The position numbers and the translations under genes were made by a program. This document shows positions 5,652-51,286 of a stretch of 55,669 bases of DNA, piece by piece. Below the pieces are notes generated by a model. That model saw only the letters and a list, made by a program, of their open reading frames with translations. It was not told the origin of the DNA and did no database searches. Source of the stretch: Candidatus Bathyarchaeota archaeon (GTDB lineage Archaea > Thermoproteota > Bathyarchaeia > Bathyarchaeales > Bathycorpusculaceae). Location of the stretch: contig JAAYYI010000045.1 of assembly GCA_012515445.1 (NCBI GenBank), forward strand, positions 1-55,669. Reading direction: 5' to 3'. Within the stretch, counting starts at the first letter, position 1. The number at the start of each line of letters is the position of its first letter.

Positions 5652-7769
5652 TTACGGCTTGAAGTAGACTTCGCTGTTGCCGTTGCTGTAAACGATACTT
5701 GTCTGGTTTATTAATGGCGCAAATGTTCCGTTTGAGTGGTTTATGCTGATGTAGCTGAGAAACGCAAAGTTTCCCGATTCAAGAACCGTAGTGTTGGTTA
5801 ACTCCCTCATGTATCCTCGATAGACATGACCGTAAGCGGGAAGTGCCGTGTAAAGCGAGTTATCAGCCGCCAAATTGTATTCGTAAGGCACATATTTTGA
5901 GATCCATTCTGCGCCCTGTACGCTCCAAGCATCAATTAAGCCGAGGTTGCCGTATAACTGAATCGGATCCATGTGGTAGCCGCTAAGCGGAATCGACCAG
6001 CTTGGCGTACCCGCAGCTTCGTAAACAAAATTTGTCTGGAACAGGAAATAAGGCACAAGTGTACCGATCACTATTGCTGCAAACACTACTTGCTGCATAC
6101 GATTACGATGCTTGGTGAGGTAACCGGCCACCATCCATATGCCCACGACGCAAAAGGGTGCAAGAATCATCAGCAGAATATGGTAAAATCGGGTCATCGA
6201 TAGGGCGTTTGCGAGGCCGGGGATAAGCGTTAACATTATCAGTAAAGCAACCGTAAGAACGCTGAAAACGATGTAGTCCCGTTCGAAGCGGAAAGGGCTT
6301 TTCTTAGTGAATAACGCGACGACGCCCAGTACGATGAATATTTCTGTCAAATAAGCAAATCCGCGGCTAATAGTGTTTAGAAGCGACGGTGACTCAGTTA
6401 AGCCCAAACCAGTTAAGACGACTGCTCCTCTTGAGGCTGGGTTGAAGAAGTCCCCTAGCTGCGCGCTGATGTAACCCGTAAATGACATGAAGCTCTGAAA
6501 AACCACCGCGCCCGAAGTGTAAATGTACCATACAAACATAGCGACGAAGAAGAAAATGATCAGGCTAAGCTGCAAATTAAAGCTGGGACGCCTGAGGTAC
6601 AACGCGGAGGTAGCCCAAGCCGCCACTGCCAAAAACAGAAAAATCTCTGCCAGCGCATAGTGGCTAAAAATCAAACCGAAACTGAATACTGCAAAGGCGA
6701 CAAATTTGCCTTCTCTTTTAACATTCTTGTTAAGCAGCGTCAGCAGCAGCAAAACAAAGAAGAGTTCGCCGATCATCTGCCGATTTAGAGCCAGCATTTC
6801 AGTGTAGAAGGTGGATTGCGCCATGAAGAGAAACGCTGCGATGAACGCAAACTTTTTGCCTATGTAGGGCTGCCAGAGCCAGTACAGCGCCAACGGAACC
6901 ATCGCGAATATGAGCGGATAAATTATCTTGTAAACCCATGTGGGGTCAATGCCCAGCATATTCGAGTACACTGTAGGTAGCACGGTGATACTTAGCATCG
7001 CGTTGTATCTACCGTATGCCTCGTCGGAGAGGAAAGTGAAAGTCGCGTTCCACCTCGAGTCTAGCTGAGTATTTTGGAACACGAACATTTCTACTGGGGA
7101 ATCGCCGCCATAGGGTATGATAAAATTCGAGACTAAAGACATATGCAGAAGCAGCGCCAACGCAATCATCAGGGTGGCGAACGCGTAGGTTTGCGGCGAC
7201 CGGTTGGTTAAAACGCCTACGGCAAAGAGGCCTGCGATGGCTATGATTGTCAACATCAGTATGGTGTTGTTGGCGGCTGCGTTTACGTAGTATGCACCTA
7301 TTACGCTAAGAGCTGGGATAACTGCGAGCAGTAGCATTGAGGGTGTAACGCTGAATTTTTTGTCCTGCTGGAACTGTCTGCGTGGGCTGCGTCTGAGGTG
7401 GGCTCCGGCGGCGCCAACGAGAACAGCGGTGTTAACCACAAGCGAGATCGGTAGCGTGGACAGCGGAAAATCTATGCCTACTAAACCGCCGAATTCGTTA
7501 ACCAGCAACCCGGTTACCATCAGAAATGCCACGCTGAAGCCCACTGCATAAAGCACTGACTCAACTGCGCCGAGGCTGTCGAGTTTCAGCAGCCTAACGA
7601 GAACTAAGCCGGGAATAAACAGCAGATACCCTATCCCAATTGCTGCCCGAGCTAATGGCAGATCAATGAATAGCGCAAGGTACATGATTACCTGTAGAAC
7701 TACCACGATCGCTAGAAAGTTCTGCGAGATAACGTTATCTTTAAAGCTTAAGCGGGCTTGAAAATTCAT
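5652..7769 (-). CDS. Large multi-pass membrane protein (DUF2206/GT-C-like)
   Basis: The 705-residue protein is almost wholly hydrophobic, with roughly 14-17 membrane segments from residue 15 to about 580, then a soluble C-terminal part (about residues 590-705) ending NSEVYFKP. Size, layout and the position among glycosyltransferases fit archaeal DUF2206-type or GT-C-fold membrane proteins, which are expected to move or transfer sugars from polyprenyl-phosphate carriers outside the membrane. An acidic YGGDSPVE loop lies between membrane segments, where GT-C enzymes keep their catalytic acidic residue. I cannot assign a specific reaction. Its start overlaps the stop of the GT4 gene upstream by 4 bases, so the two are translationally coupled. 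Confidence 0.75.
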   Translation of the reverse strand: MNFQARLSFKDNVISQNFLAIVVVLQVIMYLALFIDLPLARAAIGIGYLLFIPGLVLVRLLKLDSLGAVESVLYAVGFSVAFLMVTGLLVNEFGGLVGIDFPLSTLPISLVVNTAVLVGAAGAHLRRSPRRQFQQDKKFSVTPSMLLLAVIPALSVIGAYYVNAAANNTILMLTIIAIAGLFAVGVLTNRSPQTYAFATLMIALALLLHMSLVSNFIIPYGGDSPVEMFVFQNTQLDSRWNATFTFLSDEAYGRYNAMLSITVLPTVYSNMLGIDPTWVYKIIYPLIFAMVPLALYWLWQPYIGKKFAFIAAFLFMAQSTFYTEMLALNRQMIGELFFVLLLLTLLNKNVKREGKFVAFAVFSFGLIFSHYALAEIFLFLAVAAWATSALYLRRPSFNLQLSLIIFFFVAMFVWYIYTSGAVVFQSFMSFTGYISAQLGDFFNPASRGAVVLTGLGLTESPSLLNTISRGFAYLTEIFIVLGVVALFTKKSPFRFERDYIVFSVLTVALLIMLTLIPGLANALSMTRFYHILLMILAPFCVVGIWMVAGYLTKHRNRMQQVVFAAIVIGTLVPYFLFQTNFVYEAAGTPSWSIPLSGYHMDPIQLYGNLGLIDAWSVQGAEWISKYVPYEYNLAADNSLYTALPAYGHVYRGYMRELTNTTVLESGNFAFLSYISINHSNGTFAPLINQTSIVYSNGNSEVYFKP

Positions 7770-8941
7770 TGCTGCACCACCGATCGATAAATCGTTGACA
7801 TTTTCGGAGCGACAGCGCGTATATCGTAGTCCTGTACGGCTCGGTTACCGTTCTGGGCCATCCTTCTTCGGAGAGCCGTATCTTTTATTGCCAACGCTAT
7901 TTTCGCCGCTAAATCCTCGGCGTTTAAAGGCTCAAACAGTAATCCTGTGTCTTTGTCGATGACAGTTTCTTTTAGTATACCAAAATTCGGCACCACAACC
8001 GCTAATCCAGCCGACCAAGCTTCAAGCGTGGCGATGTAGCCGAAGTTGGTTGCTACAAAAACGTCGCTTCCCCAGAGGTACTTTCGCACATCAGTCTGTT
8101 TACCAGTCAAGGTTACAGCGTCTTCAAGGCCGTAGTCTCGGGTTTGCTGTTTGAGAGTTTCGTACATTCGACCGTAGCCGACTATAGTTAGTTTGGTGTT
8201 TGGATGTTTATCGTGGACTTTCTTGAATGCTTTAAGCACCAAATCGGGGGTTTGGGCAGGTTCAAGTCGTCCTACATAGATGACGGTGATGTCGTGCGGT
8301 TGAGGCTGCTCGGGGTTCTTAAAGTGAGATGCGTCTACGAAGTTCGTGACTAAGTGACTCTTGTACCCCAGGCCCATGCGGTCGAGTGTAGCTAGGACTT
8401 CTCGAGAGTAGGTTGTGATTGCGGCAACATCGTTTTCCAGTATACCCCTGATGGCAGGTGACTCAAGCGGCATACCGCCGTAATGGGGGTCTCCGACGTA
8501 GCCGCCGTGAAGCGTTAACACAAGGGGTTTATGGTAGTGCCTGCTCAGGTAGATTCCTAAATTGATGTATTCGAGGTCTCGCCAGATACCATGTATGTGG
8601 AAGACGTCGGCGGATCCCGCTATTTTCCAGCCTGTGGCTTCTTGGCATAGTCCTGCGAATTTCATCTTCTCCACAAGCTTAGGTGTGAAGCCCATAGTGT
8701 ACATGAATGCGCCGTTTACCACATCCACCGGTGAGGGTCCGAGGCGGTAGACTTTGATAAAGCCTGCATCCTCATATTTCTTGATATTTTTGGTTAGTAG
8801 CAGAAATTTTGTGCGGCCAGTTATCAGTGAGAAGTCGATTGCTTCCTTCTTTGATAGGTAATTGCTTAACCAGAGTATGTAGCGTTCTAATCCACCGATT
8901 TCGATAGGCCAGAACCGCTCCCAGACGTGACAAACATGCAA
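7766..8941 (-). CDS. Glycosyltransferase family 4
   Basis: The protein has 391 residues and a GT-B fold. The N-terminal domain has the acceptor-side glycine loop EIGGLERYI (residues 16-24). The C-terminal domain begins near VIYVGRLEPAQTPDLVL and has the nucleotide-sugar region ATNFGYIATLEAWSAG and NFGILKETV. The usual E-x7-E motif is partly lost: the second Glu is present (TLEAW), the first position is not acidic. Many active GT4 enzymes tolerate this. It is 17 bases downstream of a second GT4 gene and overlaps the membrane protein gene by 4 bases. A mannosyl- or glucosyltransferase role is likely, donor unknown. Confidence 0.88.
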   Translation of the reverse strand: MHVCHVWERFWPIEIGGLERYILWLSNYLSKKEAIDFSLITGRTKFLLLTKNIKKYEDAGFIKVYRLGPSPVDVVNGAFMYTMGFTPKLVEKMKFAGLCQEATGWKIAGSADVFHIHGIWRDLEYINLGIYLSRHYHKPLVLTLHGGYVGDPHYGGMPLESPAIRGILENDVAAITTYSREVLATLDRMGLGYKSHLVTNFVDASHFKNPEQPQPHDITVIYVGRLEPAQTPDLVLKAFKKVHDKHPNTKLTIVGYGRMYETLKQQTRDYGLEDAVTLTGKQTDVRKYLWGSDVFVATNFGYIATLEAWSAGLAVVVPNFGILKETVIDKDTGLLFEPLNAEDLAAKIALAIKDTALRRRMAQNGNRAVQDYDIRAVAPKMSTIYRSVVQQ

Positions 8942-45722: not shown

Positions 45723-47981
45723 CTACCCGAAGAGGCTTCTCTGCTGCTGCCCCCTCACCGCGTCGTAAACGGATTGAGGTGTGTAGCCGGCGAAGCTCAG
45801 CAGGTTAGCCGCTGACGAATAGAGCAGCATCAGGTACTTTCTTGTATCAGGGTTAGTGCCTTTCTCGATGAGCTGAGACGCTTTTACTCGGAGGTCATAG
45901 CACCTATGGGCGGCGTTGGTGAAGACGAACTCCGTGTGGGTGCCCGCCTGCACTTCGAGGCCGTGCCGCGCGAGTTGCTGGGCAACGATGACTTGGCTTA
46001 CCTGCTGCCGGTAACGGCGGGGCTCCTTGGACATGTGCTTGGAAATCATCAAGTCAGAGAGAGGCACGTCTCCGTCGAGCAGTAGCTGCCGATACGTGCG
46101 CAGGACTTTGATGGCTTCTGGAGTCTGCCTGTAGAGTTCGGCGGTGTTGGCTGCTTCGGCTAGGGTGTTTATCATGTCGGTTTGCGCGTTGTAGATGTAG
46201 CGGGGGGTGTCGCGTTTGCGTACTTCCAGCCCGCGGACCTTGATTTTGCCGCTGTCCATAACGCCGAGGTAACGGTTTAGGACGCTGACGTGGCTGTGCA
46301 GCCGCGAGGGCAGAAACATTATCCACTTGTAGTGCCCCTCAAAATTAATCGGGATACCGATCTCTTCTGTGATGTGGCTGCATAGCTCCTGATAGTCCTC
46401 CAGTGCAGCATCGGGTTTTTTGAGCCACAGCGAATCCACTATGCCATGCACCACCTCAAAGCCCTGCGCTTCTGCCAGATGGGCCGCCTTCAAAAAGTTA
46501 TCGCGTGCAAACGCGCAGACACCGATGTGGCCGTCGACTGTGCCGAATTTCGAGTTGCTGAAACCCAAATAACCAAAGCACGTGACCAGAATCCACTTCA
46601 GTGCGGTCTGGCGCCTGTCATAGATTTGCCGCTGCCGCTTATCCATGGCTTCGTCGCGTAGGCGCTTATACGTTAAGCGTTTAGTTAACGCTAAATCAAC
46701 GGTTTTAGGTACCATGCCAACGCGTTTTTTACATATGTGGTAGCCTAAGTCCGGGATGCGGTTGTCTGAGTCGGGGCAGCATTTGCAGAGCACAGTTTCG
46801 GCGGAGATATTGTACTTCTTCATAAGCGAAGGGTACATTGAGGAGAAATCCAGTTCGCCGATTGAGTCGTGTACGCCGAGTCGGGGTTCAAAGATGAAGC
46901 CGCCGCGGTCGCCCACAAGCAGGTCCTGAGCGGATTTGAAGGCTTCGGGGATTTTCTTGTTGCGGGGCAGTAGCCTGTCGTCTTTGAGTGCCTGATAGAA
47001 CTGGATGGATGACATGCTTGAGCCGATTGAGAAGCGGGCGGCTGTGTGTAGCGGCACGCGGCAGGTGCGGGCGATTTCGATGAAGCCGTCGAAGCCTGAC
47101 TCTTTAACGATGAACGTGTTACTTTCGTCAACATGTATCCGCCCGTAGAGCCGAACGGTGCCTGCGCGGTAAAATGTGTGACCATACGAGAAGTACGTGT
47201 GGCCGACTGAGGTGCTTTTTCGGTTGAAGGATTTTGGGTCGCGGCTCAGTATGAACTGGTCTAATACGTCGTTGGCGGAGGCGCGCTGTATAAGGTATGG
47301 GAAGAGGAAGGAGTCGCCTGAGGATGTGACGATAAAGTCTGGGTCGTATTCGCGTACGGCGTAGACGAGCTGAAGTAGTTTTGTAGCTTCATCCCCGTAG
47401 TCGATGGCGACCGTTTCGTGGTTATTCATTTGCAGGCGGATTTCTGCAATGGGGTCCTCGAAGCCGGGGATCAGTTCCCTCTTTGCGACGCCCACGTCCA
47501 AACGCATTACACGCAGCTCGGGCACCCTATAGTCGATGCTCCTAACATCGTCGAGCAACGTGTACTCCAACCCCGTCTTGGTAGTTTTCACTTCTGCGTA
47601 TGCTAGCGGAAACAGGTCACGGCTGTAAAAGTAGGAGCGGTCACTCTGAACATCGCAGTTATGGACTTCATAGCGCAGGTAATTCCCCATACGAAGGAGC
47701 TCCAGCGCAAGCGACGAAATTTGCCGGCAATCCTTAACGGTTAACTCCAGCACTCGGGATTTCTCGTTATCAGTCGGCTGAACATACTTCTCCACGAAAC
47801 GCAGCGAAGCGATTTTCTGGTTACTGCATAGTTTCGTCAGTAGCAGGTCTAAGTCTTCTTGTTTGGCGGCGGAAACGTAGATGCAGGGGTTAAAACTGTC
47901 AGTGTAGCGTAAGCGCTGGCCAGAGTCAGATATAACCCAGACTGCTACTTTGCCATAGCCCGTGGGATAAGCGTCAAAAAT
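45723..47981 (-). CDS. polB2: PolB2-type family B DNA polymerase, start codon unclear
   Basis: The reading frame runs to at least 47981. From the GTG at 47795 it has 690 residues, with motif A ELDFSSMYPSLM (Asp316), motif B around Lys400 (LKWILVTCFGYLGFSNSKFG), and motif C HGIVDSLW (Asp454) where most polymerases have YGDTDS. The key motif C aspartate is kept. Exonuclease motifs are lost: LDVGV replaces D-x-E and SSGDSFLF replaces NGDNFDF. A Cys cluster lies between motifs A and B. The 62 codons before the GTG encode a typical family B N-terminus (WIFDAYPTGYGKVAVWVIS, FNPCIYVSA), yet no ATG, GTG or TTG precedes them. ATT at 47981 is one candidate start; +1 frameshifting from the upstream gene is another. 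Likely role: damage tolerance, with the two upstream genes. Confidence 0.85.
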   Translation of the reverse strand: MFDAYPTGYGKVAVWVISDSGQRLRYTDSFNPCIYVSAAKQEDLDLLLTKLCSNQKIASLRFVEKYVQPTDNEKSRVLELTVKDCRQISSLALELLRMGNYLRYEVHNCDVQSDRSYFYSRDLFPLAYAEVKTTKTGLEYTLLDDVRSIDYRVPELRVMRLDVGVAKRELIPGFEDPIAEIRLQMNNHETVAIDYGDEATKLLQLVYAVREYDPDFIVTSSGDSFLFPYLIQRASANDVLDQFILSRDPKSFNRKSTSVGHTYFSYGHTFYRAGTVRLYGRIHVDESNTFIVKESGFDGFIEIARTCRVPLHTAARFSIGSSMSSIQFYQALKDDRLLPRNKKIPEAFKSAQDLLVGDRGGFIFEPRLGVHDSIGELDFSSMYPSLMKKYNISAETVLCKCCPDSDNRIPDLGYHICKKRVGMVPKTVDLALTKRLTYKRLRDEAMDKRQRQIYDRRQTALKWILVTCFGYLGFSNSKFGTVDGHIGVCAFARDNFLKAAHLAEAQGFEVVHGIVDSLWLKKPDAALEDYQELCSHITEEIGIPINFEGHYKWIMFLPSRLHSHVSVLNRYLGVMDSGKIKVRGLEVRKRDTPRYIYNAQTDMINTLAEAANTAELYRQTPEAIKVLRTYRQLLLDGDVPLSDLMISKHMSKEPRRYRQQVSQVIVAQQLARHGLEVQAGTHTEFVFTNAAHRCYDLRVKASQLIEKGTNPDTRKYLMLLYSSAANLLSFAGYTPQSVYDAVRGQQQRSLFG

Positions 47982-47994
47982 CCAGCCGCGGCTG

Positions 47995-48270
47995 CTACTG
48001 GGCGGAGGCTGGCTGTTTGGATTTAAGGTCCTCTACTTCCTTACTTAAGCGCTGTATACGGGTCTGCTGGCTAAGCAGAATCGACATCACCATCGGCTCA
48101 AACAGGATGGGTTTGGTGGCGTTGCTTGCGGCGGATGCGTAGCTGCGACATGCGTCCATTAGTGCGTCGAAGGCTTCCCTGTCTTCTCTGCGAAGCGCCT
48201 TAGCGAAGCCGCTCCATCGGCGTATCTCGTCCTCGACTGCCATGCGGTAGGATTCAACTGTTTTACCCAT
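47995..48270 (-). CDS. Small partner protein of the PolB2 operon
   Basis: The 91-residue protein is helical: TVESYRMAVEDEIRRWSGFA, then LRREDREAFDALMDACRSYA, PILFEPMVMSILLSQQTRIQ and a short coiled coil ending KSKQPASAQ. I recall similar small proteins beside PolB-type genes in methanogens and haloarchaea; the molecular role is not known. Its ATG overlaps the RecA-like gene's stop by 8 bases (ATGGGTAA). Its TAG at 47995-47997 is followed, one base out of frame, by the polymerase frame. Overlap on both sides argues that the three proteins are made in a fixed ratio and act as a complex. Confidence 0.82.
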   Translation of the reverse strand: MGKTVESYRMAVEDEIRRWSGFAKALRREDREAFDALMDACRSYASAASNATKPILFEPMVMSILLSQQTRIQRLSKEVEDLKSKQPASAQ

Positions 48271-49015
48271 TGTAGTCGCCTATGAAGTCGTTTAAAGTCT
48301 TGGTTTTTGAGGGTAACTTGGTTGCTCCCAGCATGTATGCGGGGTGCTTTTCTAGGATGACCTGTTTTCCGTAGGCGGTTTTAGCGAAGCACAGCACGGT
48401 GGTTGCGTTCTGATAGGTCAGTTGCTGAAGTGTGGTGTTGCGTTTGCTGTTCTCGAATGGCATATAGGTAGCTACCACTACGATTTGACGTCTGCGGGCA
48501 AAGTCGGCGAGGTAAGCTAAGATTTGGCTGTAGATGCTCTGTGCTTCCTCGGCGGCTATGTTGGTGTCTAAGAAGAAGCTGGCTAAGTCTGAGATTATGG
48601 CGACTTTGGCGTCGCAGGCTTTCACGGTTTCCTCCATCTTCTCCATCACAAGCGAAGTTAGCTGGTAAGCGGTGAATGCTCTTGAGATAAAGATTCGCCG
48701 AAGCGCCTCTTCGGGGTTTAAGTCGTGAAGCTGGGCTAGCTGGGCTACGCGGTAGAGCCGAAACGTGATTCCGCCATCGATGAATACTACGCTGCTGCCT
48801 AAACCCCCGAGTTGGGGCGGCAGTTGCGCTCGGACGCAGAGCAGCGAAGTCAGGGTGGCTACTGCGCGTGAACCGTAGAGGACAGCAAAGTCGCCGGGCA
48901 AAAATCCCGGAAATAGCTCGTCTACGCCCGGCATGTTAAGCGAAAAAGCAGTTTGAGGCATCGGCTGAACGTTTGATGGACTAACAACTAAGTTTTGCAC
49001 ATTTTTTCTCCCCAT
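48263..49015 (-). CDS. RecA/RadA-superfamily protein with degenerate P-loop
   Basis: The protein has 250 residues and the RadA/RadB-like core order: LNMPGVDELFPGFLPGDFAV, then YGSRAVATLTSLLCVRAQ where the Walker A GxxxxGKT should be. The GK is lost, so ATP binding is doubtful. VVFIDGG and the Walker B-like VAIISDLASFFLDT (about residues 148-161) remain, followed by IVVVATYMPFE. It probably scaffolds the polymerase, as ImuA does in bacterial mutasomes (analogy only). The ATG at 49015 has no ribosome binding site, but GGGGAG inside the frame lies 7 bases before a GTG at 49000, which may be the real start. First gene of the operon. Confidence 0.8.
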   Translation of the reverse strand: MGRKNVQNLVVSPSNVQPMPQTAFSLNMPGVDELFPGFLPGDFAVLYGSRAVATLTSLLCVRAQLPPQLGGLGSSVVFIDGGITFRLYRVAQLAQLHDLNPEEALRRIFISRAFTAYQLTSLVMEKMEETVKACDAKVAIISDLASFFLDTNIAAEEAQSIYSQILAYLADFARRRQIVVVATYMPFENSKRNTTLQQLTYQNATTVLCFAKTAYGKQVILEKHPAYMLGATKLPSKTKTLNDFIGDYNG

Positions 49016-49048: not shown

Positions 49049-49056
49049 TATTTAAA
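49049..49056 (-). promoter_or_regulatory. TATA box for the PolB2 operon
   Basis: GTTTAAATA (minus strand) lies about 35 bases before the ATG and 50 before the GTG of the RecA-like gene. It predicts a start near 49023. In the same gap CTCTTAAGAG, a perfect 10-base palindrome, is at 49132-49141, nearer the divergent glycosidase gene. Confidence 0.6.
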
Positions 49057-49162
49057 CCATCGACGTAACAACCTGTGCCAGCAGTAGAGAGGGGCCCAAA
49101 AGTAAATGCTACTCGGGATCTGAAGAAAAAGCTCTTAAGAGGTAAAAACAGTCATACGGGCA

Positions 49163-51286
49163 ATGCCTAGATCTACAACCATAGTGATGCTGACTGGGTT
49201 TCTGATTCTGCTACTGGCAGCGCCAGCCATTTTCCAAGTATACGCAGGTACTCAGGGTGCTGTTTCTGATGACGCTGAGGATATCATGATCAGCGGTGTT
49301 TTGGCACATAGCATGGATGAATCCCAAGCTAAGCTTCTGTCAGAAAACGGGTTCTATGTAGAAGCAGACGTAGAACTCCAAGAAAACAGCGCATGGCAGA
49401 CCACCTATTCGCTATGTAAAGAGTACAATATCTCGTTAATCGGCAAATTCTTGCATAAAACAATGAATTACAGCATTTCTGCGCCAAATAGCACCGACTG
49501 GGTACAAACCATACAGACCGCAGTAACTAGATACGGCGATATAGTGAAGCACTGGGAAATATGGAATGAACCAACAGACAACACCAATTTCTTCTCCGGA
49601 AACGCCTCTGAATATACAGAGATGCTACGGCTCGCTAACCAAACCATAAAAGCCATCTCACCTGACGCAGTCGTCATCGGGTTAGGCGGATTACATCTAT
49701 ACAGCGGAATTGACGCTTGGGTTATAAAAGGGCTACAGTTTGCGCAGGATGTCACCACCCTAGGCGGTATGGATTACTGCGACGCAATCAGCCTACACGC
49801 TTACCCATGGGGGAACTATTCTGATTTTGTGGCAAACGCTATAACTCAATCGCTTGAGCAGTACAGAACTATTACCGGGCAGATGCCAATCTGGATAACT
49901 GAATCGGGCCAGCACTCAAACAGTCGTGGGCATGACGAAAAAGACCAAGCGAACTTTCTCTACAGCAGCTACAAACTGTTTAAGGCCCAGAATGTATCCG
50001 CATACATTTGGTATGAACTCGGCGAAACCGAAGGCAACATAGCGAATAATGACACTTTCGGATTATTCGATGTGAACTCTAACCCTAAGCTAGCATTCCA
50101 AACATACGTTTTAGTTAAATCTGAAACCGTCTTCGTTGATGCAGCGGTAGATTACTTGGCAAAATGCTTCAATCCAGAGATAGGTTTAATCTATGAAACC
50201 CCAGACAACAATGCATCTACCTATTGGCTTTACTCGGACAACTACTTAGCGCAACTGGCACTATCGCCCTATGCACAAAATGAAACTGTAGCGCAGATAT
50301 TAGAAAAAATAGCTGCCACTTCAATCAATTTTGCCGTAACTGAGCAGGGCATTGTTAATCAGTACCAAATTCTAAACCGCTCCGCCTACACCATGCCAAT
50401 AAAGAATTCAAGTAATTACGGGATTGCTGAATTGGATGGCACTTCGATCGGCTGTACCATAAACAACGGAACAGGAACTCTAAGTTATAGCGATTACGTC
50501 GACATTGCCTTCCTGAGCGCCATCGCCTACCAGAATGACAACCAAAGCAGAAATGCGTTGCTTGCCCACAAAAACGGCACTACAATGTGGAACGGATCGG
50601 GATTTGTAGACAGTACTTACAATAGCAGCCGCGGGTATGATACGTTCAAGCTGGCGCTCTACGTCTACGCTTCAAAGGTGCTGAATCGCGATTTTGATGT
50701 TAGGGCATACAATAATCTGCTATCCTGCCAATTGAGATCGGGAGTTAGCGGCGAGGCAAACAAGGGCGGATTTGCAACTTACTACACGGCTAATAACTGT
50801 ACTAATAATCAGACGAATACGGAAACAACCGCTTTAGCGGTTTTAGCTCTAACTTATGCACCTGCAAAAGAGGAACCGCTGACGCCTCCGCCGACTCCAA
50901 CGCCTACTCCCACGCCCACAGCTACTCCGACACCAACACAGACTCCTACCCCAACTGCCACACCCACAACAGCTCCAACCCCTACACCTACTCCAACGCC
51001 AACCCCGACACCAACCGCTACGCCAACACATTCCACGCCAGCTCCTACGCCATCGCCGATTCCGACAACTCCAAAGCCTACATCAACTTCCCCAACCCCC
51101 ACGCCGCCCACGTCATCAACTCCAACACCGGCACATATGCCCACCCCACTATCAACATCTCAACCAGCAGAAACAACAGCCAATCCACTGCTCTACATAA
51201 CAGTTGGCGCATCAGCCGCTGCAGCAGCCATCATCACGCTAGTTTTACTAAGAAAAAAGATAACACCAAAGTCCGCCTTTAAATAA
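49163..51286 (+). CDS. Surface-anchored clan A glycoside hydrolase with Pro/Thr stalk
   Basis: The protein has 707 residues. A signal peptide (1-28) precedes a (beta/alpha)8 barrel of clan A (GH39/GH5-like, about 40-340): acid/base Glu136 in HWEIWNEPTDN, HAYPWG, and nucleophile Glu247 in MPIWITESGQ. A second domain (about 345-570) contains many N-x-S/T sequons and is helical, resembling alpha-toroid sugar-binding or polysaccharide-processing domains. A Thr-Pro repeat stalk (about 575-675) leads to a membrane helix (680-700) and basic end RKKITPKSAFK. It acts on a glycan outside the cell while tethered. Its stalk matches that of the GH5 enzyme at 10268-11896. Confidence 0.87.
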   Translation: MPRSTTIVMLTGFLILLLAAPAIFQVYAGTQGAVSDDAEDIMISGVLAHSMDESQAKLLSENGFYVEADVELQENSAWQTTYSLCKEYNISLIGKFLHKTMNYSISAPNSTDWVQTIQTAVTRYGDIVKHWEIWNEPTDNTNFFSGNASEYTEMLRLANQTIKAISPDAVVIGLGGLHLYSGIDAWVIKGLQFAQDVTTLGGMDYCDAISLHAYPWGNYSDFVANAITQSLEQYRTITGQMPIWITESGQHSNSRGHDEKDQANFLYSSYKLFKAQNVSAYIWYELGETEGNIANNDTFGLFDVNSNPKLAFQTYVLVKSETVFVDAAVDYLAKCFNPEIGLIYETPDNNASTYWLYSDNYLAQLALSPYAQNETVAQILEKIAATSINFAVTEQGIVNQYQILNRSAYTMPIKNSSNYGIAELDGTSIGCTINNGTGTLSYSDYVDIAFLSAIAYQNDNQSRNALLAHKNGTTMWNGSGFVDSTYNSSRGYDTFKLALYVYASKVLNRDFDVRAYNNLLSCQLRSGVSGEANKGGFATYYTANNCTNNQTNTETTALAVLALTYAPAKEEPLTPPPTPTPTPTPTATPTPTQTPTPTATPTTAPTPTPTPTPTPTPTATPTHSTPAPTPSPIPTTPKPTSTSPTPTPPTSSTPTPAHMPTPLSTSQPAETTANPLLYITVGASAAAAAIITLVLLRKKITPKSAFK

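Follow-up and report, generated by a model that had tools for sequence, protein, structure and literature searches.

The question raised by this locus is whether three adjoining genes of a Bathyarchaeal contig, encoding iRadA, the small protein PPB2 and a B-family polymerase, form a PolB2 mutasome and whether this particular copy still works. The genes occupy positions 45723-49015 of the window, i.e. the whole stretch of 55,669 nucleotides analysed here. The original prediction had read them as a PolB2-type operon of overlapping or abutting genes on one strand, specifying a mutasome-like complex. All three do lie on the minus strand, with an 8-nt overlap between the iRadA and PPB2 genes (table 1); the operon and its inactive RadA are already published (PMC4104785), and the complex has been modelled with AlphaFold as a heteropentamer of PolB2, iRadA and three PPB2 (PMC11791011). 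The operon is a Bathyarchaeal PolB2 mutasome of the kind described in these papers. Its gene order, iRadA-PPB2-PolB2, recurs at 57 of the 80 named PolB2 loci (those truncated at a contig end being scored as negative), an arrangement far beyond chance. The co-occurrence of the genes extends to whole genomes: every one of the 17 genomes that carry a PolB2 frame (defined by at least 50% identity) also has PPB2, but only 4 of the remaining 44 do. The neighbouring genes—for a Na/Ca exchanger, a glycosyl hydrolase and a P-type ATPase—are ordinary ones.

Table 1. Features of the operon and its upstream region (window coordinates).
Feature	Position	Strand	Description or basis
Weak box copy, ATTTACTTTTGGGCCCCTCTCTACTG	49082..49107	(-)	second best of 111,280 window positions
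TATA-like TTTAAATA, putative	49049..49056	(-)	sequence, 34 nt upstream of iRadA ATG
iRadA, RadA/Rad51 homologue without Walker A	48263..49015	(-)	250 aa, ATG; PF08423 4.2e-14
Walker A region of iRadA, GDFAVLYGSRAVAT, no GK	48854..48895	(-)	sequence
SRAFTAYQ of iRadA, residues 111-118	48662..48685	(-)	conservation among 56 iRadA
PCNA-binding-like tail of iRadA, TKTLNDFI	48281..48304	(-)	sequence, putative
PPB2, arCOG07300-like	47995..48270	(-)	91 aa, N-terminal arm MGKT; homologues adjoin PolB2 in relatives
PolB2 open frame	45723..48032	(-)	769 codons stop to stop; PF00136 5.8e-33, PF03104 1.7e-07
AGG codon where nearest relatives start PolB2	48030..48032	(-)	aligned junctions
FKSA, FxxA-type motif of PolB2, residues 365-368	46929..46940	(-)	37 aligned PolB2
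D375-R376, PolB2 D(K/R) motif	46905..46910	(-)	D 37/37, R 35/37
Motif A Asp395	46848..46850	(-)	invariant, 37/37 aligned PolB2
Motif B Lys479	46596..46598	(-)	invariant, 37/37 aligned PolB2
Motif C HGIVDS, residues 529-534	46431..46448	(-)	37 aligned PolB2
QQRSLFG, weak PCNA-motif-like PolB2 C-terminal tail	45726..45746	(-)	sequence; variable among relatives

The model of the polymerase has a pLDDT of 89.7 and a pTM of 0.87; the sequence stays under the cut-offs of the best NCBIfam models (377 versus 692 bits and 322 versus 516). As the original prediction had it, the catalytic residues of motifs A, B and C are kept; its D316, K400 and D454, numbered from a GTG, are D395, K479 and D533 of the open frame, and each is invariant in an alignment of 37 PolB2 sequences that includes the one from the window. 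HGIVDS does stand in place of YGDTDS, with H, I and D533 found in 37/37 sequences, V and S each in 36/37 and G in 35/37. Both exonuclease motifs are destroyed as claimed, motif I reading D-V-G and motif II being without its Asp; the diverged domain is still recognised by Pfam. We had considered HGIVDS and the exonuclease loss as peculiar to the window, an idea that was dropped because both are common to the 37 aligned PolB2. These features and the dead Walker A of iRadA are traits typical of the family. Palm and fingers show a dN/dS of 0.15 against L045, the only relative for which it was computable there. Towards its middle the protein carries the segment FKSA, which we take to be akin to the FxxA motif of Rad51 self-binding: F is present in 35, A in 28 and both in 27 of the 37 sequences, and the region is modelled with low confidence in the monomer (10-residue block means of 62-68 for residues 361-380). 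By conservation and position, this Rad51-like segment would precede the D(K/R) motif of PolB2 described in PMC11791011 and PMC8764526, with which D375-R376 was equated by the same two features in an alignment without Dpo2.

The AlphaFold model of iRadA has the RadA ATPase-domain fold, without the N-terminal domain and the ATPase residues (pLDDT 89.1, pTM 0.85; best Foldseek matches Dmc1/RadA). The claim that a RecA-like protein has lost the GK of Walker A holds for the Rad51/RadA match in the window, and GK is absent at this place from all 56 aligned iRadA. The segment SRAFTAYQ presumably belongs to the pocket for the FxxA peptide, as in human RAD51. It is intact in 24 of the 56 iRadA, 22 of them from PolB2-bearing and two from PolB2-less genomes. 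Counted by genome, at least one iRadA with the intact segment occurs in 17/17 PolB2-bearing genomes, but in only 2 of the 18 PolB2-less genomes that have iRadA (Fisher 4e-8, uncorrected for kinship). Since the pattern can be explained by two changes on the tree, this value overstates the independence of the observations. One locus, L061, keeps SRAFTAYQ in a genome without PolB2, and where PolB2 copies have no adjoining iRadA, an intact iRadA is found elsewhere in the same genomes. This sequence co-variation supports the docking of iRadA and PolB2 as modelled. A TLxDF-like tail, judged by eye, is present in many iRadA, both in operons and solo. PPB2 has no Pfam or other family match, and the K of its arm is shared by the relatives compared.

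One claim of the original prediction has to be revised, namely that PolB2 begins at GTG 47795. The frame is open up to 48032, and a start at this GTG would separate the polymerase from PPB2 by 199 nt and drop about 65 conserved residues, the conserved protein starting near residue 16 of the open frame. Residues 16-79 are 83% identical to those of the nearest relative, with a dN/dS of 0.06 (synonymous sites being near saturation); 4831 of 5000 shuffles of the upstream 79 codons contain a stop codon; and the upstream residues fold within the N-terminal domain (10-residue block means of 90-96 for residues 11-90). Between the upstream stop and the conserved core, the window contains no ATG, GTG or TTG. 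One of these codons occupies the aligned start place in each of the junctions of 21 relatives, where the window has AGG. A comparison of 109 PolB2 frames, in which some contigs are represented by two loci, gave a start codon at this place in 96, no recognisable anchor in 10 and no start in three (the window, L190 and L191). The absent ordinary start lowers the claim of a working copy, not the identity of the operon. Of the 201 alignment columns on which the other 17 rows agree fully, the window PolB2 departs from 2; relatives depart from 0-11. The upstream N-terminus, the absent start codon and the promoter box described below go beyond the original prediction.

This box of about 26 nt, TTTCACTTTCACTnACCCCTCCCCTG, precedes iRadA, PPB2 or radA at 41 of the 71 sites found genome-wide, against none for the reversed control. 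It stands before iRadA in 11 of 13 operons including that of the window, against 5-8 in 30 shuffles (best 8-mer with at most one mismatch; the near-identical operon L059 omitted). Its left half, at up to two mismatches, was found at 30 of 42 named Bathyarchaeal loci versus 33 of 840 shuffles; 12 of the 42 other named Bathyarchaeal operons are without it at this threshold. In the window, the copy is weak: it scores 10.3, below 56 of the 59 sites of relatives, only L078, L064 and L234 being lower, in a comparison that left out just the window itself and one duplicate locus and that favours a low rank for the window, the sites having been preselected for a good left half. In a hand-trimmed version, the 38 rows kept score 22.9-41.0 versus 8.5 for the window (8 of 46 rows were omitted, seven as out of register and L104 without good reason). 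The box of the nearest relative, L045, scores 31.9, and the window genome itself has a one-mismatch box at radA. We infer that the box is the damage switch of this Bathyarchaeal class. Its ACTTTC core in relatives fits ANTTTC, the Sulfolobus damage response element recognised by Orc1-2 (PMC9738581), a six-base match being weak evidence; in contrast to that element, the Bathyarchaeal box spans about 26 nt and has a second conserved half.

Compared with known systems, the operon most resembles the published PolB2 mutasome (PMC11791011; PMC4104785), with which it shares the three genes and their order, HGIVD, the lost exonuclease, D(K/R), an iRadA without Walker A but with a clamp-like tail, and a small PPB2 with an N-terminal arm. 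It differs in that the Bathyarchaeal arm reads MGKT instead of the MGRT conserved in the published PPB2 of about 90 aa, in the promoter box of the Bathyarchaeal operons and in the missing ordinary start codon of PolB2 in the window. Sulfolobus Dpo2 is likewise a B-family enzyme with an HxxxD motif C, reported as an exonuclease-inactive mismatch extender with polymerase activity and a part in mutagenesis (PMC8764526, PMC7390963); whereas Dpo2 is the smallest PolB2 known according to PMC8764526, the window frame has 769 codons and a recognisable if diverged exonuclease domain. The E. coli Pol V mutasome (UmuD'2C-RecA) is comparable in its bypass polymerase, recombinase-type interface and small arm-bearing subunit (PMC11791011), but has a Y-family polymerase, an active RecA and an unrelated small subunit.

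Overall, we consider it quite probable that the three genes form a Bathyarchaeal PolB2 mutasome operon, working as a damage-bypass complex and perhaps turned down here. DNA damage would induce a single transcript from the TATA-like element before iRadA, yielding iRadA, PPB2 and PolB2. PPB2 would trimerize and insert its MGKT arm into the cleft between PolB2 and iRadA, while the flexible PolB2 loop FKSA...DR would bind iRadA as one Rad51 subunit binds the next. The PCNA-like tail of iRadA, and weakly that of PolB2 too, may keep the complex at the clamp, where the proofreading-deficient polymerase would extend mispaired ends beyond lesions. Gene order, conservation, the single-chain folds of PolB2 and iRadA and the co-variation of SRAFTAYQ with PolB2 were obtained here; what is said of polymerase activity, of induction by damage and of the structure of the complex, a model, comes from papers on other organisms. 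We are less sure of a turned-down operon in the window genome, a reading prompted by the weak box and by a PolB2 lacking an ordinary start codon alongside intact coding frames. It relies on a single genome bin, where a mistaken base or a non-standard initiation codon would account for the AGG.

Whether the window operon is instead fully working, its AGG being an assembly error or a genuine unusual start and its weak box sufficient, seems to us an evenly balanced matter. The frames are intact with an N-terminus under purifying selection, departures from invariant columns are within the range of relatives, the box is still the second-best site of the window, 12 of 42 other Bathyarchaeal operons have no close left-half match either, and L190 and L191 also have no ATG, GTG or TTG; yet box and start codon are both affected here, and the box falls far behind that of L045 and the one retained at radA. 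A catalytically inactive polymerase, in a complex that does no more than regulate replication or stalled forks, is improbable. The PolB2 family was first read in this way (PMC4104785), and motif C without its first Asp and the lost exonuclease motifs fit; however, the three catalytic residues are invariant, palm and fingers have a low dN/dS, and PMC8764526 describes Sulfolobus Dpo2, whose motif C is of the HxxxD type, as an active extender.

That the operon is cargo of a mobile element, hence its patchy multi-copy distribution, is unlikely, if less so than a dead polymerase. Several genomes do have at least two copies or broken fragments, an integrase lies near L035, and a PolB2 end occurs on the viral contig L259 together with a frame read as portal-like from the frame list, but the window operon is flanked by ordinary genes and the genomes with most copies, G017 and G022, have 9% and 6% contamination. 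The original prediction had also drawn a parallel with bacterial ImuA-ImuB-DnaE2, which stands as an analogy, a RecA-like protein adjoining a probably error-prone polymerase, and fails as homology, for which we see hardly any chance: the polymerase matches B-family PF00136 instead of being a C-family DnaE2, iRadA is a RadA/Rad51, and the middle protein, at 91 aa and with no family match, was ruled out as a Y-family-like ImuB.

Beyond the operon, relatives carry solo iRadA, and PPB2 adjoining a compact X-family polymerase; single loci have Pol X after PolB2 or iRadA-PPB2 ahead of a Y-family polymerase. The Y-family enzyme was rejected as a regular partner of iRadA-PPB2, as only L073 of 14 Y-polymerase loci shows this arrangement, about 800 nt apart, and no case of Pol X in a viral contig was confirmed. 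Nine loci of compact Pol X with no recognised PPB2 (L231-L233, L235-L240) have no box at up to two mismatches, so the box tracks PPB2/iRadA rather than Pol X; one PPB2-Pol X locus, L090, has none at this threshold either. The box and the scattered mutasome parts look new: searches of the open-access literature with a few terms returned neither a description of the box nor a link between PPB2 and Pol X. Tentatively, and with somewhat less than even confidence, one may picture the mutasome as split genus-wide into modules under one box, a single damage regulon in which solo iRadA with its clamp tail has lost the docking segment, PPB2 has been recruited by the compact Pol X, radA bears the box, and the window genome is switching its PolB2 branch off. 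This is less likely because 12 of the 42 other Bathyarchaeal operons have no close box match.

The PolB2 complex has so far been known through AlphaFold models and Sulfolobus genetics, and the parts of the PolB2 literature examined here report no experiments on the roles of the partners. A natural experiment is offered by a genus that has PolB2, iRadA and PPB2 in combination, separately and alongside other polymerases. SRAFTAYQ, kept with PolB2 and mostly lost without it, lends the modelled interface support from independent data, and the shared box is a testable candidate for a Bathyarchaeal DNA damage regulon. The presence of PPB2 beside Pol X suggests that this arm-bearing small subunit may serve more than one polymerase family and, if the modular picture is true, PPB2 and iRadA would be general bypass accessories rather than PolB2-specific ones.

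The segment 45723-49015 is filled by three minus-strand frames, encoding a RadA-like protein (iRadA), a 91-aa protein (PPB2) and a B-family polymerase (PolB2), in a genome of 2.44 Mb and 92% completeness that carries, besides PolB2, two other B-family and two Y-family polymerases. The closest named relatives of this PolB2 come from Candidatus Bathyarchaeota bins with names like palsa, fen and bog. The original prediction was mostly right, i.e. in the three-gene operon, the catalytic residues and the lost motifs, but not in its GTG start. The catalytic residues it named (D395, K479 and D533 in open-frame numbering) are invariant across 37 PolB2 sequences including the window's, nearly all with HGIVD as motif C; of the exonuclease motifs described as destroyed, motif I reads D-V-G and motif II lacks its Asp. 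The RecA-like pseudo-ATPase is likewise borne out, with iRadA lacking GK and having the predicted structure of a RadA ATPase core. Excerpts of PMC8764526 and PMC4104785 give an altered motif C and exonuclease loss as marks of PolB2, and PMC11791011 presents a complex of PolB2, iRadA and a PPB2 trimer from AlphaFold models. Since both these marks and the modelled complex are already published, the operon belongs to a described kind, the PolB2 mutasome, and the predicted mutasome-like complex was right in kind though already in print; its putative mechanism rests on the published models and on sequence. Adjoining the operon, at 49163-51286, lies a gene with no visible connection to it, whose product resembles glycosyl hydrolases and contains a long linker rich in T and P; in relatives, pairs of related genes diverge from the operon (L054 5758-7493, L055 12773-14504, L056 5155-6962), that of L055 being DUF72, a neighbour also reported in PMC11791011. 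As far as searches of the open-access literature with few terms show, the PolB2 gene-model correction, the co-variation test of the iRadA segment SRAFTAYQ (residues 111-118), PPB2 with Pol X, the radiation of solo iRadA and the promoter box appear to be new.

The GTG previously taken as the polymerase start (47795) encodes residue 80 within a reading frame open up to 48032, and 21 relatives start the same protein upstream, at ATG, GTG or TTG, mostly within the last PPB2 codons. By three tests, the stretch from 48032 down to this GTG is coding: it shows 83% protein identity and a dN/dS of 0.06 to the nearest relative (synonymous sites being near saturation), 4831 of 5000 shuffles of it contain a stop, and it folds with confidence in the predicted structure. 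Among 109 PolB2 frames, in which several loci are the same contig counted twice, ATG precedes a conserved anchor in 56 and GTG or TTG in 40, ten have no recognizable anchor, and three, i.e. the window, L190 and L191, have none of these codons before it; the window has AGG at the relatives' aligned start. In L190 (2944) and L191 (1333), both Nitrososphaerales, ATA directly after a stop opens the frame. The window protein is without signs of decay, because of 201 alignment columns that do not vary among the 17 other sequences it differs at only 2, versus 0-11 in relatives.

Directly before its D(K/R) motif, PolB2 carries FKSA (365-368; F in 35/37, A in 28/37, both in 27/37), which we take to resemble the FxxA self-binding motif of Rad51; SRAFTAYQ presumably sits at the pocket receiving that motif. 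As a check on the published interface, the segment was compared in 56 iRadA from 35 genomes (one row below 100 bits, a true RadA, excluded): SRAFTAYQ is intact in all 14 operon copies and both copies adjoining PPB2 alone, in 6/14 solo copies of PolB2-bearing genomes and in 2/26 of PolB2-less ones. Per genome, this amounts to 17/17 PolB2-bearing (any PolB2 frame with 50% identity or more, even a broken one) versus 2/18 PolB2-less, but as few as two changes on the tree explain the pattern, so these genomes are not independent. Where PolB2 lacks an adjoining iRadA, the genome has an intact one elsewhere (G003, G006, G007, G012, G017, G022, G024); on the other side, L061 retains SRAFTAYQ in a PolB2-less genome, and L078 sits at the end of its contig, adjoining a PPB2 fragment.

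Of the 32 genomes from this genus, 27 carry solo iRadA; no aligned copy has GK in its Walker A region, many bear a TLxDF-like tail (judged by eye), and some adjoin housekeeping blocks, e.g. RNA polymerase, ribosomal or enolase genes. PPB2, in turn, pairs with a compact X-family polymerase at four loci from two genomes, abutting it in L081, L084 and L090 and 70 nt apart in L083; two further pairs (L234, L245) are damaged, and in L035 the order is iRadA-PPB2-PolB2-PolX. This polymerase (about 196 aa) consists of palm and thumb only, with an N-terminal KQSTLF/KQATLF (thumb PF14791 above cut-off, palm PF14792 slightly below), and a class-wide search found it near full length at 48% identity or more in 8/256 genomes. 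Contamination is 3% in bin G005 and 6-9% in G017, G022 and G003, so copy numbers in the latter three may be inflated.

Coordinates of operon frames, related genes and promoter boxes (G000, window genome; C, contig)
Feature	Location	Remark
iRadA	48263-49015	window, minus strand
PPB2	47995-48270	window, minus strand
PolB2 open frame	45723-48032	window, minus strand
Solo iRadA of window genome	G000:C13:129-830	
Compact Pol X	L035 4689-5291	after PolB2
Compact Pol X	L081 3418-4008	beside PPB2
Compact Pol X	L083 3775-4398	beside PPB2
Compact Pol X	L084 1036-1662	beside PPB2
Compact Pol X	L090 5575-6165	beside PPB2
Box at radA	G000:C112	1 mismatch
Two boxes before unidentified frames	G000:C87:11139-11311	0 and 2 mismatches
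Box at solo iRadA	G000:C13	3 mismatches

Several further arrangements were seen. In G003, whose PolB2 frame is broken, a Y-family polymerase lies about 800 nt downstream of iRadA-PPB2 (L073 7095-9975). A small membrane-like protein (68-91 aa, MSFGNLKVFxGIQEALVLALML) precedes iRadA in L062 (6623-6898) and eight similar loci, several of which have genes for a PAS histidine kinase and a response regulator in front of it. The viral contig L259 (IMGVR_UViG_3300044904_000224), with frames read as a portal-like and a transposase-like protein, encodes a window-type PolB2 at its end and is either a provirus lying next to the operon or a contig that was sorted wrongly; another, L260, has a PolB2-like polymerase (6022-8412; 32% identity) with motif C altered to MYVDG.

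Upstream of iRadA, 11/13 operons including the window's share a TTCACTTT-like 8-mer (5-8 in 30 shuffles), part of a box with the aligned consensus TTTCACTTTCACTtACCCCTCCCCTg (46 sites). A 14-mer of it, at up to 2 mismatches, gave 108 matches across 116 loci, which overlap in some cases and total 1.24 Mb, versus 20 in one block shuffle; 74 have a frame of the mutasome or RadA type within 600 nt downstream (iRadA/RadA 56, PPB2 16, PolB2 2), a share biased because the loci were fetched for holding such genes. The unbiased genome-wide scan (61 genomes, up to 1 mismatch) found 71 sites in 28 genomes, 27 of them from this genus, and zero with the reversed pattern. Judged by position, these sites precede iRadA (20), RadA (12), PPB2 (9) and other or unidentified genes (30), which means that repair genes are not the only ones to carry the box; the last group includes nine before an 82-aa protein (weak DUF7493 match, below cut-off), five before a 118-121-aa protein and two before DUF559 nuclease-like proteins, and in L385 (2131-3883) box and small frame are followed by a phage terminase. 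Among 80 named PolB2 loci, nine with too little upstream DNA, the left half of the box (up to 2 mismatches) occurs in 30/42 Bathyarchaeal operons, part of them contigs already in the 13-operon comparison, versus 33/840 shuffles, and in 1/29 operons of other groups versus 12/580. Its ACTTTC fits ANTTTC, given in an excerpt of PMC9738581 as the Sulfolobus element bound by Orc1-2, a six-base match being weak evidence.

The window's own box (49082-49107) is the second best match of 111,280 positions there, and scores 10.3, versus 31.9 for the nearest relative (L045) and a median of 33.3 for 59 sites of relatives, 56 of them higher; against 38 hand-kept sites it scores 8.5 versus 22.9-41.0. A scan of the window genome at up to 3 mismatches, a laxity at which the control gave one match, recovered the boxes tabulated but not the operon's own. 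Against a reading of this weak box as silencing, 12 of the 42 named Bathyarchaeal operons likewise have no left half of the box when up to 2 mismatches are allowed. In this one bin, which is too little for proof, the weak box and the missing start codon together suggest a PolB2 branch that may be turned down in the window organism.
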